Positions 19,148 to 57,931 of a stretch of 64,000 bases of DNA are shown here, piece after piece. Each line of letters begins with the position of its first letter. The first letter of the stretch is position 1. The notes beneath the pieces are model-generated. The model did no database searches, was not told the DNA's origin, and saw nothing but the letters and a program-made list of their open reading frames with translations. Position numbers and translations under genes: made by a program. This stretch comes from Oscillospiraceae bacterium (GTDB lineage: Bacteria > Bacillota > Clostridia > Oscillospirales > Ruminococcaceae). The DNA lies in assembly GCA_017472965.1 (NCBI GenBank), contig JAFUNR010000010.1:124001-188000 (forward strand). Reading direction: 5' to 3'.

Positions 19148-19216
19148 ACCTGCGTTCCATGCGGTAACCACGGGGTTTCCGCATATTTTTCCGGTTAAAA
19201 ATCAAATACGATCCAT

Positions 19217-19386
19217 GGAATGATGGAGGAGCGGCGAGCCACAAGTATCCCTTGCAGGAATGGCATCTCAAAGGGTGAACAGGGCCGCTGCCGAAGCAAA
19301 CAGGGCGTGCCATCGACCTGTTCGCTGGGGCGGTGCAGCAGATGCACCGCACTGTCACAAGTAATTGTGGAGAGCTGTCATCTCGA
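19217..19386 (+). promoter_or_regulatory. Lysine riboswitch (L box)
   Basis: The leader carries the conserved L-box blocks in order: GGAGGAGCGGCGAG, ACAAGTATCCC, AAAGGGTGAA, the core GCTGCCGAAGCAAAC, GCTGGGGCGGTGCA with its returning arm TGCACCGCACTGTCAC, and the closing GTGGAGAGCTGTCATC. A terminator follows at 19418. Lysine binding should favour termination, so the transporter gene downstream is expressed when lysine is scarce. Boundaries are approximate. Confidence 0.9.
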
Positions 19387-44005: not shown

Positions 44006-44935
44006 TCAGGAGATATCGTTGGTCAGGCCCAAGCGCTCGATCAGTTCTTCGGCGGCATTGTAGCCCAGCTTCTTCTGACGGTTGCTGATGGCAGCGGCCT
44101 CCAGAATGATGGAGAGATTGCGGCCGGGACGCACCGGAATGACAGAAAGCGGCAGTTCCACACCCATGATATCGGTGACCTCATGCTCAAGACCGGTACG
44201 GCTGTAATTCTTCTGGCCATCCCAGTTTTCCAGCTGCACCACCATATCCACCTTTTCGCTGGGCTTGATGGCACCATCGCCAAAGACACGGGCGATATTC
44301 AGAATGCCGATACCGCGCAGCTCGACAAAATGACGAATATTTTCGGGAGCACTTGCCACGATGGAACGGTTGGAGACCTTGCGCAGCTCCACTGCATCGT
44401 CCGCGATCAGGCGGTGTCCGCGCTTGACCAGCTCGATGGCAGCCTCGCTTTTACCGACGCCGCTCTCACCCATGATCAGAATGCCCTCGCCGTACACCTC
44501 CACCATAACACCGTGACGGGTAATGCGGGGCGCAAGTTCCACCGTCATCATGGAGTTCATGGCGGTGATCAGCTGCGTGGTGTTTTCGGAGGAATGCAGC
44601 AGCGGTATGCTGTATTCTTTTGCATATTCCACCATCTCATCAAAAACAGGAATACTGCGGGTGACGATGACTGCCGGCGGCTTGACCGCAAACAGCGTGC
44701 GGATATGGCTGCGGCGTTCCTCGGCGGAGATCTCTTTCAGATAGGACATTTCCACCATGCCGCAAACCTGCACACGGGTGGTATCAAAGAATTTGTTGTA
44801 GCCTGCCAGCAGCAGACCGGGGCGGTTGACATCCGCGGAATAGATCAGCACTTTATCCAGTTCGCAGGGACTGTAGATCACTTCCACATTCAGGTTGGTC
44901 AGGGCTTTTTTCAGGCTTACCGAAAAATTCTGCAT
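44006..44935 (-). CDS. hprK: HPr kinase/phosphorylase
   Basis: This 309-residue enzyme phosphorylates and dephosphorylates Ser-46 of HPr, the signal for carbon catabolite repression in Firmicutes. The Walker A loop MGESGVGKSEAAIELVKRGH is at about residue 153. LIADDAVELR follows, and RGIGILNIARVFG and VTDIMGVELPLSVIPVRPGRN are the kinase/phosphorylase signature regions. The N-terminal domain (1-130) is as expected. It is the first gene of the hprK-glk-murB-whiA-dnaE-pfkA series. CcpA and HPr genes are not in the window. Confidence 0.96.
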   Translation of the reverse strand: MQNFSVSLKKALTNLNVEVIYSPCELDKVLIYSADVNRPGLLLAGYNKFFDTTRVQVCGMVEMSYLKEISAEERRSHIRTLFAVKPPAVIVTRSIPVFDEMVEYAKEYSIPLLHSSENTTQLITAMNSMMTVELAPRITRHGVMVEVYGEGILIMGESGVGKSEAAIELVKRGHRLIADDAVELRKVSNRSIVASAPENIRHFVELRGIGILNIARVFGDGAIKPSEKVDMVVQLENWDGQKNYSRTGLEHEVTDIMGVELPLSVIPVRPGRNLSIILEAAAISNRQKKLGYNAAEELIERLGLTNDIS

Positions 44936-44987
44936 AGCACTCCATCCTTTCCCGCCGCTGCAGCGGCCATTTCCTTATACAAAGTTA

Positions 44988-45016
44988 ATTATACCCTACC
45001 TGCTCTTTTGGCGCAA
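44988..45016 (-). promoter_or_regulatory. hprK promoter
   Basis: On the minus strand, -35 TTGCGC (45011-45016), a 17-base spacer and -10 TATAAT (44988-44993). Confidence 0.65.
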
Positions 45017-45133
45017 GTCTTTTCCCTGTTTTTCTTTTTGTAAAGCTGATTTCTGCCGGCTGAAGTCACCTTCGCTTTCCAGTGCAAACTGTCCGTCTCA
45101 CGGATACAATGCAAAATTTTTGTATTCAAACTA

Positions 45134-45162
45134 TTGACATTCGACCAAAACAGGTATATAAT
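45134..45162 (+). promoter_or_regulatory. serC-serA promoter
   Basis: This is a full consensus promoter: TTGACA (45134-45139), a 17-base spacer and TATAAT (45157-45162). Such strength fits control by later attenuation. The expected start near 45169 leaves about 270 bases of leader before serC. Confidence 0.85.
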
Positions 45163-45196
45163 GCCAAGTAAATTCTTCCCCGAAAGGAAAACGACC

Positions 45197-45313
45197 ATGA
45201 CTGCTGTCTGTTTCAAAAAGTCATCGTCCCGATCTTGCGGCGCTGCTTCGGCTGCGTCTTGCTGCGGTGTGATGCTTTTGCACGAAAGGGCGTTTTCCAT
45301 TCGTACACCTTGA
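45197..45313 (+). CDS. Ser/Cys-rich leader peptide upstream of serC
   Basis: This 38-residue frame starts at ATG 45197, seven bases after AAAGGA, and ends with TGA at 45311. It encodes seven serines, six of them within residues 9-21 (KSSSRSCGAASAASCC), and four cysteines. It lies between a consensus promoter and a strong terminator, directly ahead of the serine-synthesis genes. This is the layout of a ribosome-mediated attenuator: stalling at Ser or Cys codons when the charged tRNA is low would prevent termination. I know of no described serC leader peptide of this type. Translation is inferred from the ribosome site and composition only. Confidence 0.6.
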   Translation: MTAVCFKKSSSRSCGAASAASCCGVMLLHERAFSIRTP

Positions 45314-45348
45314 CTCGATTCCGGGTCATCGTTCACCACATCCATACA

Positions 45349-45391
45349 GCAGGGTGCAGGCGATTGTTCCTGTAGCCTGCTTTTTGTTTTT
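45349..45391 (+). terminator. Attenuator terminator between leader peptide and serC
   Basis: GCAGG-G-TGCAGG (45349-45360) pairs with CCTGTA-G-CCTGC (45369-45380), giving 11 pairs and one mismatch around an eight-base loop. It is followed by TTTTTGTTTTT. An upstream segment, TTGCAC at 45278-45283 inside the leader frame, can pair with GTGCAG of the terminator 5' arm and is a candidate antiterminator strand. Confidence 0.8.
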
Positions 45392-45436
45392 CACAATGCA
45401 TAAATATTGGTGATCACATATTAGGAGGAAACTGTT

Positions 45437-46525
45437 ATGGATCGCGTTTACAATTTCTCTGCCGGCCCGTCGATGCTTCCGCTGGAGGTATTGGAAAAAG
45501 CGCAGAAGGAGCTGCTGAATTACAATGGCTGCGGCTCCAGCGTGCTGGAAATGAGCCATCGCTCCAAGCCGTTTGAAGCCATCGTGAATAACGCTGAAGC
45601 CACGCTGCGGCGGATCATGCACATTCCCGATGAGTATGCAGTGCTGTTTTTGCAGGGCGGTGCCTCGCTTCAGTTTTCCATGGTTCCGATGAACCTGACT
45701 GCGCAGGGTGCTACGACCGCCTATGCCGTGACCGGACAGTTTGCCAAAAAGGCATGGGAAGAAGGTGCCCGCTGGGGCAACGCCGTGGCAGTGACCAATG
45801 GCAAAATCGACAATTTTGCCGCCATTCCCGCTGTCACGCCCGAGCTCATCCCGCAGGATGCCGCCTATCTGCACATCACCGGTAATAACACGGTATACGG
45901 CACTGCGTACAACACACTGCCCGACACCGGCAGCGTACCACTGGTGGCAGACTGGTCCTCTGCCATTCTCGGCAAGGTCATCGATGTGAAAAAGCACGCG
46001 CTGATCTATGCCGGTGCACAGAAAAACATGGGCCCCGCCGGTCTGACTGTGGTCATCCTGCGCAAGGAGCTTCTGGAGCGCACATTGGATCCCATCGTGC
46101 CCACCATGCTGCAGTATGCCATCCATGCAGACAAGGGCTCCATGTACAACACCCCGCCCTGCTTCTCCATTTACATGGCAGGCCTGGTATTTGAGTGGGT
46201 GGAGAAAAATGGCGGCGTAGAGGCCATGGAGCAGCGCAATGCCGCCCGTGCCGCCGCACTGTACAAAGCACTGGAGAGTTGTGATCATTTCCGTCCCCTG
46301 GCAGCAAAAAAGGATCGTTCCATTATGAATGTGACCTTTACGCTGGATACGCCTGAGATGACTGCAGAGTTCCTCGCCATGGCACAGGGACGCGGTCTGA
46401 CCAGCCTGAAAGGCTATCGCACTGTGGGTGGCTGCCGTGCATCGCTGTACAACGGTATGCCGGACGAAGGTGTCGCTGCGCTGATCGACTGTATCTGCGC
46501 ATTTGAGATCGGCAAGCGCACCTGA
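45437..46525 (+). CDS. serC: Phosphoserine aminotransferase
   Basis: This 362-residue PLP enzyme converts 3-phosphohydroxypyruvate and glutamate to phosphoserine. The family start YNFSAGPSMLPLEVLEKAQ is at residues 4-22, MSHRSKPF follows, and the PLP-binding Lys lies in LIYAGAQKNMGPAGLTVVI near residue 196. The C-terminal VGGCRASLYNGMP is typical. Length equals that of other bacterial SerC. The start follows AGGAGG. It is transcribed with serA after a leader that looks like an attenuator. Confidence 0.97.
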   Translation: MDRVYNFSAGPSMLPLEVLEKAQKELLNYNGCGSSVLEMSHRSKPFEAIVNNAEATLRRIMHIPDEYAVLFLQGGASLQFSMVPMNLTAQGATTAYAVTGQFAKKAWEEGARWGNAVAVTNGKIDNFAAIPAVTPELIPQDAAYLHITGNNTVYGTAYNTLPDTGSVPLVADWSSAILGKVIDVKKHALIYAGAQKNMGPAGLTVVILRKELLERTLDPIVPTMLQYAIHADKGSMYNTPPCFSIYMAGLVFEWVEKNGGVEAMEQRNAARAAALYKALESCDHFRPLAAKKDRSIMNVTFTLDTPEMTAEFLAMAQGRGLTSLKGYRTVGGCRASLYNGMPDEGVAALIDCICAFEIGKRT

Positions 46526-46553: not shown

Positions 46554-47729
46554 ATGTTCACCGTAAAAACCTTCAATGCCATTTCCAATATCATCCGCCA
46601 GCATCTGGATGATGAAACCTATACCATTGATGCAGATGCATTTACCTACGATGCTGCGCTGGTGCGCAGCGCCGATCTGCATGAGACAGCTTTTCCGCAG
46701 CGGCTGCTGGCCATTGCCCGTGCCGGCGCAGGCTACAACAACATCCCGTTGGAGCGCTGCGCTGAACAGGGCATTGTGGTCTTCAACACCCCCGGTGCCA
46801 ACGCCAACGCCGTCAAAGAGCTGGTACTGTGCGGTCTGCTGCTGGCCGGCCGTCAGGTGGTGCCCGCCATCCAGTGGCTGGAAAGCGCCTATGCCAACGG
46901 CATCACCGGTCTGGGCGCACTGGCAGAAAAACAGAAGAAATATTTTGTCGGCCCCGAGCTTGCAGGCAAAAAGCTGGGTGTGGTCGGTCTGGGCGCTATC
47001 GGCGTACAGGTGGCCAACGCCGCTGCCAATGGTCTGAACATGGATGTACTGGGCTACGATCCCTATATGTCCGTGGAGGCTGCATGGCACCTGACCCGCA
47101 GCGTACGCCATGCCGACACACTGGATCAGATCTTTGCCGAGTGCGATTACATCACCCTGCATCTGCCGCTGAAGGACAATACCCGCGGTATGGTGAATGC
47201 CGAACGACTGGCCGCGATCAAACCCGGGGCCGTGCTGCTGAACTTTGCCCGCGGCGGGCTGGTGGATACCGATGCACTGCTGGACGCTCTGGCGTGCGGC
47301 AAACTGGCACGCTATGTAACAGACTTCCCTGACGATGCGCTGGTGGGCAAAAAGAATATCATCACCCTGCCTCATCTGGGCGCATCCACACCGGAGAGTG
47401 AGGAGAACTGCGCCGCCATGGCTGCAAAGCAGCTGGCGGATTATCTGGAACACGGCGATATTGTCAACTCGGTGAATTTCCCTGCCTGCAGTATGCCGCG
47501 CACCGGCGCATGGCGGCTGTGCATTCTGAACCGCAATATCACCGGTATGGTAGGCAAGATCACCGCCGTGCTGGCTGCCGAGGGACACAACATCGACAAC
47601 ATGCTCAACAAGAGCCGCGGCGACTGGGCCTGTACCTTGATCGACACCGGTACAGAACCCTCTCCCGCCTGCATTGCAGCGCTGGAAGATATTGACGGCG
47701 TGGTGCGCGTACGCACACTGGGCCGCTGA
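46554..47729 (+). CDS. serA: D-3-phosphoglycerate dehydrogenase
   Basis: This 391-residue enzyme oxidises 3-phosphoglycerate to 3-phosphohydroxypyruvate, the first step to serine. The NAD loop VVGLGAIGVQVANAAANGL is near residue 145, the substrate Arg in LLNFARGGLVDTDALL, and the catalytic His in TLPHLGASTPESEENCA. A C-terminal ACT domain (about 320-391, ILNRNITGMVGKITAVLA) probably binds serine for feedback inhibition. This is the short form without the intervening domain. It begins 28 bases after serC. The start is ATG 46554 after AAGGAAAGGAAG. Confidence 0.95.
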   Translation: MFTVKTFNAISNIIRQHLDDETYTIDADAFTYDAALVRSADLHETAFPQRLLAIARAGAGYNNIPLERCAEQGIVVFNTPGANANAVKELVLCGLLLAGRQVVPAIQWLESAYANGITGLGALAEKQKKYFVGPELAGKKLGVVGLGAIGVQVANAAANGLNMDVLGYDPYMSVEAAWHLTRSVRHADTLDQIFAECDYITLHLPLKDNTRGMVNAERLAAIKPGAVLLNFARGGLVDTDALLDALACGKLARYVTDFPDDALVGKKNIITLPHLGASTPESEENCAAMAAKQLADYLEHGDIVNSVNFPACSMPRTGAWRLCILNRNITGMVGKITAVLAAEGHNIDNMLNKSRGDWACTLIDTGTEPSPACIAALEDIDGVVRVRTLGR

Positions 47730-47742
47730 AATCAAAAAAGAA

Positions 47743-47782
47743 CACGGACGCTCTGTCATCGACAGAGTGTCCGTGCTTTTTT
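47743..47782. terminator. Bidirectional terminator after serA
   Basis: The 15-base perfect stem CACGGACGCTCTGTC/GACAGAGTGTCCGTG (one G-T pair) has a three-base loop and A- and T-rich flanks. It serves serCA and the convergent ECF operon. Confidence 0.88.
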
Positions 47783-47785
47783 CAA

Positions 47786-48304
47786 TCAGGTTTTGCGGGT
47801 GGCTTTTTCCGCCAGCCGAAGGATGGATACCATTGGCACGATCAGTGTGCCGGCGATAAAATTGCTGACGCCATGGATGACATCATAAGGCAGACCGGCA
47901 ATGATCCATGCAACGGTCCCCTGCCAGTCCAGGCCGAAAAACAGCGCCTGTGCCGGGGCATACAGCGTGCCGTACAAAAAGCCGTGCAGTGAGCATACCG
48001 CCATGTAGACAAAAGGGGCAAGCTTTTTCGGCATATTTTTCGGCAGCAGCATCGTTACGGCCCAAAGCAATGTCCAAATGTACAGATACGGGATCCACCA
48101 TGTATTGAAGCCGTTGAGCAGACCGATCAGTATGACGAACACATACAGTGGATACAACGCCTTTTTCCGGTATACCAGCGTATACGCCATGGTGAGCACG
48201 CCGACCAGATGAATGTTCGGCAGAAACTCCATCACCATTTTGGAAATATACATCAGCGCTCCGAGCATACCGAATATGGCGATCTCTTTGATCTTCAGCT
48301 TCAC
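47786..48304 (-). CDS. ECF transporter S component, predicted cobalamin/cobinamide
   Basis: This 172-residue membrane protein has about six hydrophobic helices, the size and layout of substrate-specific (S) components of energy-coupling-factor transporters. The N-terminal EIAIFGMLGALMYISKM carries the Ala-x-x-x-Ala-like helix that contacts the T component. Start codon GTG 48304 overlaps the stop of the lipoprotein gene by four bases. Energising subunits (EcfA, EcfA', EcfT) are not here, so it is probably a group II ECF using shared ones. The substrate is inferred from the cobalamin riboswitch upstream. Confidence 0.82.
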   Translation of the reverse strand: MKLKIKEIAIFGMLGALMYISKMVMEFLPNIHLVGVLTMAYTLVYRKKALYPLYVFVILIGLLNGFNTWWIPYLYIWTLLWAVTMLLPKNMPKKLAPFVYMAVCSLHGFLYGTLYAPAQALFFGLDWQGTVAWIIAGLPYDVIHGVSNFIAGTLIVPMVSILRLAEKATRKT

Positions 48305-48799: not shown

Positions 48800-48988
48800 T
48801 CGCGGATCGGGGCAAAAGCTTTTGCTGCACGGATATTCCGACTGGATGCCTGTGCGTTTCCGGTCTTCTCAGAACAGCTGTTCCAATGACGTTTCCCCGC
48901 TGATTGCGGCTGCGGGTCAGAAAACGCTGTTTTTTTGCATCTTACGGCGACGGGCTCGTACAGGCTTTTCACCTGTTTCCCCATACAG
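48800..48988 (-). promoter_or_regulatory. Cobalamin riboswitch
   Basis: On the minus strand the leader has the conserved B12-box blocks in order: GGGGAAACAGGTGAAAAGCC (48963-48982), GAGCCCGTCGCCGTAA, the GTCATTGG block in place of GCCACTG, and GAAGACCGGAAACGC (48854-48868). Boundaries are approximate. A short palindrome GCAAAAGCTTTTGC follows near 48810. The expression platform is unclear: either translational, through the AAAGGAG at the lipoprotein start, or transcriptional. Confidence 0.88.
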
Positions 48989-48994
48989 CAAAAA

Positions 48995-49036
48995 CAGTAT
49001 AGCACATTGTTTTTGAAAATGCAATGTGCTATACTG
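48995..49036. promoter_or_regulatory. Symmetric divergent promoter in a 15-bp perfect inverted repeat
   Basis: CAGTATAGCACATTG (48995-49009) and CAATGTGCTATACTG (49022-49036) form a perfect inverted repeat with a 12-base spacer. Each arm carries a -10 TATACT pointing outward. The plus -35 is TTGTTT (49007-49012) and the minus -35 TTGCAT (49019-49024), each with a 17-base spacer. The two promoters overlap and drive the riboswitch operon leftward and the acetyltransferase rightward. Confidence 0.72.
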
Positions 49037-57844: not shown

Positions 57845-57931
57845 TGGTGCGGATGAAGGGACTTGAACCCCCATGAAATTGCTTTCACTAGAACCTGAAT
57901 CTAGCGCGTCTGCCAATTCCGCCACATCCGC
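57845..57931 (-). tRNA. tRNA-Leu (anticodon CAG), second copy
   Basis: This 87-base tRNA is identical to that at 1203-1289, including encoded CCA, the CTAGA/TCTAG anticodon stem with CAG, and a long variable arm. Its flanks also match: the same promoter spacing and the same 5' leader hairpin. The downstream terminators differ in sequence. Confidence 0.97.

Follow-up and report, generated by a model that had tools for sequence, protein, structure and literature searches.

Leader-peptide attenuators are known for the trp, his, ilv/leu, thr and phe amino-acid operons. The serC-serA locus considered here, located in a 64,000-nucleotide stretch of an Oscillospiraceae genome (hereafter the window), resembles these systems in that a promoter, a short frame in which codons for the product amino acid are clustered, a predicted antiterminator and a terminator precede a biosynthetic operon. 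It is unlike them in that the amino acid is serine, the target is serC-serA, the serine codons are UCN only, and the antiterminator strand would occupy the distal portion of the frame.

Outside Proteobacteria, regular amino-acid leader peptides include one for histidine at hisZ/hisS* in bacilli (PMC2965389, where leader peptides replacing T-boxes are also remarked upon), a Leu-rich one that attenuates ilv-leu in Staphylococcus aureus (PMC5794164) and a uORF candidate at Acholeplasma aroF (PMC8632094), all of which differ from the serC leader in amino acid, gene and lineage. Short frames with Cys codons, as are also found here, precede the cys operons in Mycobacterium (PMC1262725) and cysS in Rhodobacterales (uORFC-8-2, together with a terminator; PMC8632094), but in those cases the Cys codons are the signal and the targets are cys operons or cysS rather than serC-serA. 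Serine is not mentioned in the accessible portion of the actinobacterial paper (PMC1262725). Three systems are related through serine itself. In Paenibacillus polymyxa, the serA Ser T-box likewise detects whether tRNA-Ser is charged and halts transcription ahead of a serine gene, but it binds the tRNA directly via an AGC specifier and has no translated frame (PMC8002221). The serC RNA motif of alpha-proteobacteria (RF00517) is likewise a leader RNA of serC-serA, but two short stems are proposed to hide the ribosome site, and no leader frame is noted in the accessible part of its description (PMC1273637). In sinR of Bacillus subtilis, slow translation of UCN codons likewise serves as a gauge of serine, although the effect is on SinR synthesis itself and not on a terminator (PMC3862929).

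In the open-access literature, to which our search was directed (subscription papers being outside its scope), we found no serine leader-peptide attenuator. We consider it very probable that the serC-serA leader senses charged tRNA-Ser(UCN) through a leader peptide and acts by ribosome-mediated transcription attenuation, and serine specificity would be the new element that it brings to this known mechanism.

Anatomy of the leader and its surroundings

The preliminary description of this region had claimed a full consensus promoter, and we found TTGACA-17-TATAAT at 45134-45162 on the forward strand, matching the consensus at 12 of 12 positions. When at least 9 of 12 matches were required, this was the sole promoter-like site in 44500-46000, a scan for which shuffled sequences give 1.2 sites. 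A ribosome-binding site, AAAGGA (45183-45188), is positioned 8 nt 5' of the ATG of a 38-codon frame plus stop (45197-45313) that encodes MTAVCFKKSSSRSCGAASAASCCGVMLLHERAFSIRTP and has homologous frames in five other genomes. The good ribosome site and the six Ser (residues 9, 10, 11, 13, 18 and 21) and three Cys (14, 22 and 23) reported for residues 9-23 of this frame were all confirmed in the sequence. The terminator with T-run, also noted earlier, is an intrinsic terminator at 45348-45391 (hairpin 45348-45381, T-run to 45391). Its stem has a predicted energy of -20.5 kcal/mol, with 12 pairs and a single mismatch, and a generic terminator scan caught only 45355-45374 (6 pairs) of it. The leader as a whole (45168-45395) gave a fold energy with a z of -2.6 relative to shuffles, 2 of 200 of which were as good.

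The gene order 3' of the terminator, serC followed by serA, was checked with NCBIfam. The phosphoserine transaminase gene serC (45437-46525) matched NF003764 (E 7e-146) and TIGR01364, both above cut-off. The best match of the second gene of the operon, serA (46554-47729), was the phosphoglycerate dehydrogenase model TIGR01327 at E 2e-70, below the cut-off of the model, and we refer to its product as phosphoglycerate dehydrogenase-like. An operon-end terminator was recognized by eye at 47743-47783. All of these features are on the forward strand. The genes after the leader serve the synthesis of serine, for which the proposed control codons stand. Upstream of the leader, hprK (NCBIfam) is encoded on the opposite strand, and there is therefore no other evident gene to which the leader terminator could belong.

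Among the neighbours, a Cobalamin riboswitch (48811-49017, reverse strand) precedes a small lipoprotein-like frame, assigned by eye, and a membrane frame (47786-48304, reverse strand) that by eye resembles an ECF transporter S component and has no NCBIfam match. Elsewhere in the window we observed a Lysine riboswitch (19216-19385, forward strand, 83.7 bits) and two tRNA-Leu(CAG) genes of equal score, oppositely oriented and separated by about 56 kb (1203-1289, forward; 57845-57931, reverse).

We examined whether the leader belongs to a known RNA family. An Rfam search of 45100-45440 at E values up to 10 gave no T-box (RF00230), no serC leader (RF00517) and no other plausible family. The lone match in the leader was to another family on the other strand at E 8.2, which is chance level; apart from this match, nothing was obtained that would speak for the T-box or other known RNA family that the preliminary description had raised as the case against attenuation. 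Control of serC by a T-box or metabolite riboswitch, with the frame being incidental, would suit a genome with 15 T-box matches, 10 of them above cut-off, and one can point to serA under a T-box in P. polymyxa (PMC8002221); with no such family in this leader, however, we give this explanation hardly any credence. At gathering score, T-boxes were also absent from the 40 of 112 serC loci that were scanned (39 leaderless and one, L003, with a leader). By eye, some of eight of the 15 T-boxes of this genome (L113-L120) precede pheS, tyrS, valS, metG or an Lrp-type regulator, and serS was not recognized after any of these eight.

Leader frames in related genomes

Searches for serC were positive in 2 of 2 genomes of the same genus (g1), in 195 of 247 of a family sample and in 4 of 5 of a second genus (g49), the fifth g49 genome giving no serC match. 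The best 80 loci of a scan of genome contigs for serC were taken, and upstream regions were compared for 112 serC loci, in which the family sample is represented by its 30 best loci only. A promoter, a short frame, a Ser block and a terminator precede serC-serA in all six serC-bearing genomes compared of g1 and g49. The frames encode MTAVCFKKSSSRSCGAASAASCCGVMLLHERAFSIRTP in the window, MAMAICKMSSSCSSDTACSVCGCFVMRCLLQMLNRLCK in G001, MKVRFYAISSSCCSDTSSVPALGVRFFHND in G049, MKFRIAAISSSCCSDTSLVPALGVRFFRND in G217, MKLCFTAISSSCCSGTSAVPALGVRFFRND in G247 and MRFANCFTSSCWRGTSGVSVIGVRKSFRCPQLTD in G248. In each locus a TTGACA-type promoter ends 32-35 nt 5' of the ATG, an intrinsic terminator with T-run is present between frame and serC, and serA lies 3' of serC. 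Ser9, encoded by TCA in all, and Ser10 are found at identical codons in 6/6 frames, and Ser11 in 5/6; the G248 leader has only SS, then a single S later. As three of the g49 sequences are closely related, the six loci correspond to about four independent cases.

The comparison of serC upstream regions that had been suggested as a check thus gave the short frame, Ser9 and Ser10 with changes among UCN codons only, the promoter, the terminator and a predicted antiterminator in 6/6 loci, and together with the absence of an Rfam family this supports the proposed ribosome-stalling attenuator. Conservation of the RNA without the frame, the pattern that would point the other way, was not what we saw; the frame is retained, whereas the sequence around it differs to a large extent from one genus to the other. 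When the four g49 leaders are aligned, there are two gaps inside the frame common to all, of 3 nt each.

An intact frame in six genomes would also be expected if its product were a small, functional protein rich in Ser and Cys and the terminator did no more than end that gene. The peptides, on the other hand, have few invariant residues (three columns in a MAFFT alignment, or Met1, Ser9 and Ser10 when counted from the start) and the leader peptide has no NCBIfam match. The frame is directly before serC-serA in 6/6 loci, and in the window no second promoter-like site was found ahead of serC. We regard a small protein as very improbable.

How often such an arrangement occurs before serC was estimated with 110 of the 112 loci, each with 200 nt or more of upstream sequence; L105, which is short, and L003, a duplicate, were left out. 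A terminator within 330 nt of serC was present in 28 of the 110, the six leader loci and 22 of 104 others. When an SD-led frame with at least three UCN codons in six codons was required in addition, 5/6 leader loci and 0/104 others remained, G248 being the leader carrier that failed the strict UCN count. The 104 comparison loci are distinct sequences, with one pair 90% alike. Ser-rich frames that had appeared in a looser count (L007, L014, L016, L064, L068, L088, L100 and L103) were discarded after failing the stricter UCN count. A profile of the six peptides was then run against 396 family genomes; it retrieved at E 1e-12 or better its own six, from which it had been built, and the next match was at 1.5e-4. 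Matches at E ≤0.1 were found in 93 of the 396 genomes, and those in 87 of them, all at 1.5e-4 or worse, were taken as chance. In an order-wide search of 394 genomes at E ≤0.001, the window's own genome alone matched; as the other five carriers are missing from these matches, the 394-genome sample evidently does not contain them.

Predicted alternative pairings

The alternative pairings of the leader are predicted by folding. The terminator 5' arm together with its preceding base (segment 3, 45347-45360) would be common to terminator and antiterminator. The preliminary description had proposed 45278-45283 as its upstream partner. This segment can indeed form 6 pairs with the arm by eye, but the better candidate is 45252-45264 (segment 2, CTGCGTCTTGCTG, within codons 19-23), predicted from stem match, duplex energy and fold, which would form 13 contiguous pairs with 45347-45359. 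We set the shorter segment aside for the longer one, and in folds of the stalled state it is unpaired with the terminator arm. No shuffle of the frame segment out of 150 matched the 13-pair stem of the window. The longest stem was unremarkable in G001, G217 and G247, where 34, 52 and 76 of 150 shuffles equalled it; in G049 and G248 it was equalled in 6 and 10 of 150. Duplex energies were better than the shuffle mean in 6/6 loci, with P values of 0.071 (window), 0.066 (G001), 0.052 (G049), 0.164 (G217), 0.078 (G247) and 0.004 (G248), and a Fisher P of 5e-4 for the window, G001, G049 and G248, the four loci that are not close to one another. The stalled-minus-finished difference in pairing probability had no clear excess over shuffled frames (mean 0.397 versus 0.338, sd 0.051), a result that counts against the model. 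An antiterminator in the leader is likely, and is the least secure part of the model.

We also folded incomplete transcripts, from the front edge of the ribosome to the terminator loop, while the ribosome was moved along the frame. When the ribosome occupied the first Ser codons, the terminator 5' arm was predicted to pair upstream at 0.59-0.91 in the six loci, and this pairing drops once the A site is at codon 15-17 in the window and about 20-25 in the others. In G217 the drop is a modest one, from about 0.68 to 0.45, and in some loci part of the pairing returns further downstream. Without a ribosome, the arm of the incomplete transcript is still partly paired upstream (0.47-0.91), and basal termination is therefore not clearly predicted there. 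In full-leader folds of the window the terminator probability was 0.93 without a ribosome and 0.99 with one at the stop codon, and by ribosome site 0.01 (Ser9), 0.61 (Ser10), 0.10 (Ser11), 0.51 (Arg12), 0.64 (Ser13) and 0.98 (Cys14). The terminator is also predicted to be weak with a ribosome at codons 3-8, so that, judged from the window fold only, the serines do not stand out. When the whole terminator is present and the ribosome is in the Ser block, the predicted equilibrium favours the terminator in 5/6 loci, and the switch in those loci would have to be kinetic.

Serine codons and the proposed mechanism

All 34 serines of the six leaders are encoded by UCN and none by AGY. In contrast, among 96 serines in seven genes of the window 44 are AGY and two TCA, and the UCN:AGY ratios in serC plus serA of the six loci are 17:11, 19:16, 22:8, 27:12, 21:12 and 21:8. 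Multiplied together, the chances of an all-UCN leader in the six loci give 4e-7, a value that overstates the significance because the rows are related. The third positions of the serine codons vary between leaders, with TCG/TCA at codon 10 and TCC/TCT at codon 11, while serine is kept. In the three close g49 genomes there is no synonymous change in the Ser block. Ribosome profiling of serine-starved B. subtilis, as reported in PMC3862929, shows slowing at UCN and not at AGC/AGU.

One might suppose that serC is controlled by translation of the frame but that stalling at particular codons plays no part, as with general slowing or Rho/coupling effects, and the modest antiterminator statistics are in favour of this. 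This would leave unexplained the 34/34 UCN serines, kept while their neighbours drift, as well as the intrinsic terminators with T-runs in 6/6 loci, and we judge it quite improbable.

For the attenuator responding to charged tRNA-Ser(UCN), we infer stalling, regulation by serine and read-through as follows. RNA polymerase would start at about 45169, and a ribosome would follow on the 38-codon frame. When the UCN-reading tRNA-Ser is charged, the ribosome would pass the serine block and disturb 45252-45264; the terminator would then form and transcription would end before serC. When that tRNA-Ser is uncharged, the ribosome would stall at Ser9-Ser13, 45252-45264 would pair with the terminator 5' arm, and polymerase would read through into serC-serA. 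The control codons would be Ser9-Ser10-Ser11-Arg12-Ser13 (TCA TCG TCC CGA TCT, 45221-45235, forward strand), whose serines are all UCN.

Both Ser and Cys codons had initially been proposed as the stall site. A ribosome at Ser9-Ser13, or at Cys14, would leave 45252-45264 free, while a stall at Ser18, Ser21 or Cys22-23 of the window would cover this strand, and the working control codons would therefore be mainly those of the first serine block. A role for Cys is possible, with the reservation that applies to Cys22-23. The same attenuator might instead respond chiefly to cysteine, or to serine and cysteine jointly. Cysteine is made from serine, its codons come after the Ser block, every leader contains Cys, in 5/6 directly after SS or SSS, and in serine-starved B. 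subtilis the density of ribosomes increases at Cys codons as well (PMC3862929). However, the operon makes serine, the Cys positions vary and in the window include Cys22-23 within the antiterminator strand, and the feature common to all six leaders is Ser9-Ser10. We therefore consider cysteine unlikely as the main or joint signal; as a signal it is probably secondary.

We tentatively put forward a more specific possibility, toward which we are nearly evenly divided, that this is the first serine-specific attenuator and that it is isoacceptor-selective. Through its exclusive use of UCN codons, beginning with TCA, which is rare in the window genes counted, it would follow the charging of the tRNA-Ser that decodes UCN and not that of tRNA-Ser as a whole, with the adjacent Cys adding a second input from a downstream product. 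The case would add serine specificity to attenuation, in a lineage where T-boxes occur too, and would link attenuation to the differing sensitivity of UCN and AGY codons to starvation that is already known. If the selectivity is true, the leader would be a natural use of this starvation hierarchy and would give a clean test of isoacceptor-specific sensing.

The history of the leader was considered with a tree of 31 SerC proteins taken from the 112. Inside a 16-row branch of this tree the rows with a leader fall into two groups, and the leaderless L004 and L005 are weakly placed beside g49. There may have been one gain with loss, or two gains; the SSSC.SDT motif common to G001 and G049/G217 suggests a single origin. 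In another leaderless relative, G015 (L085), a terminator is present near serC, and the locus was rejected as a candidate as no frame passes the UCN count. By eye, its terminator-like hairpin is at -88 of serC with a TATAAT directly before it, perhaps reflecting a different control of serC.
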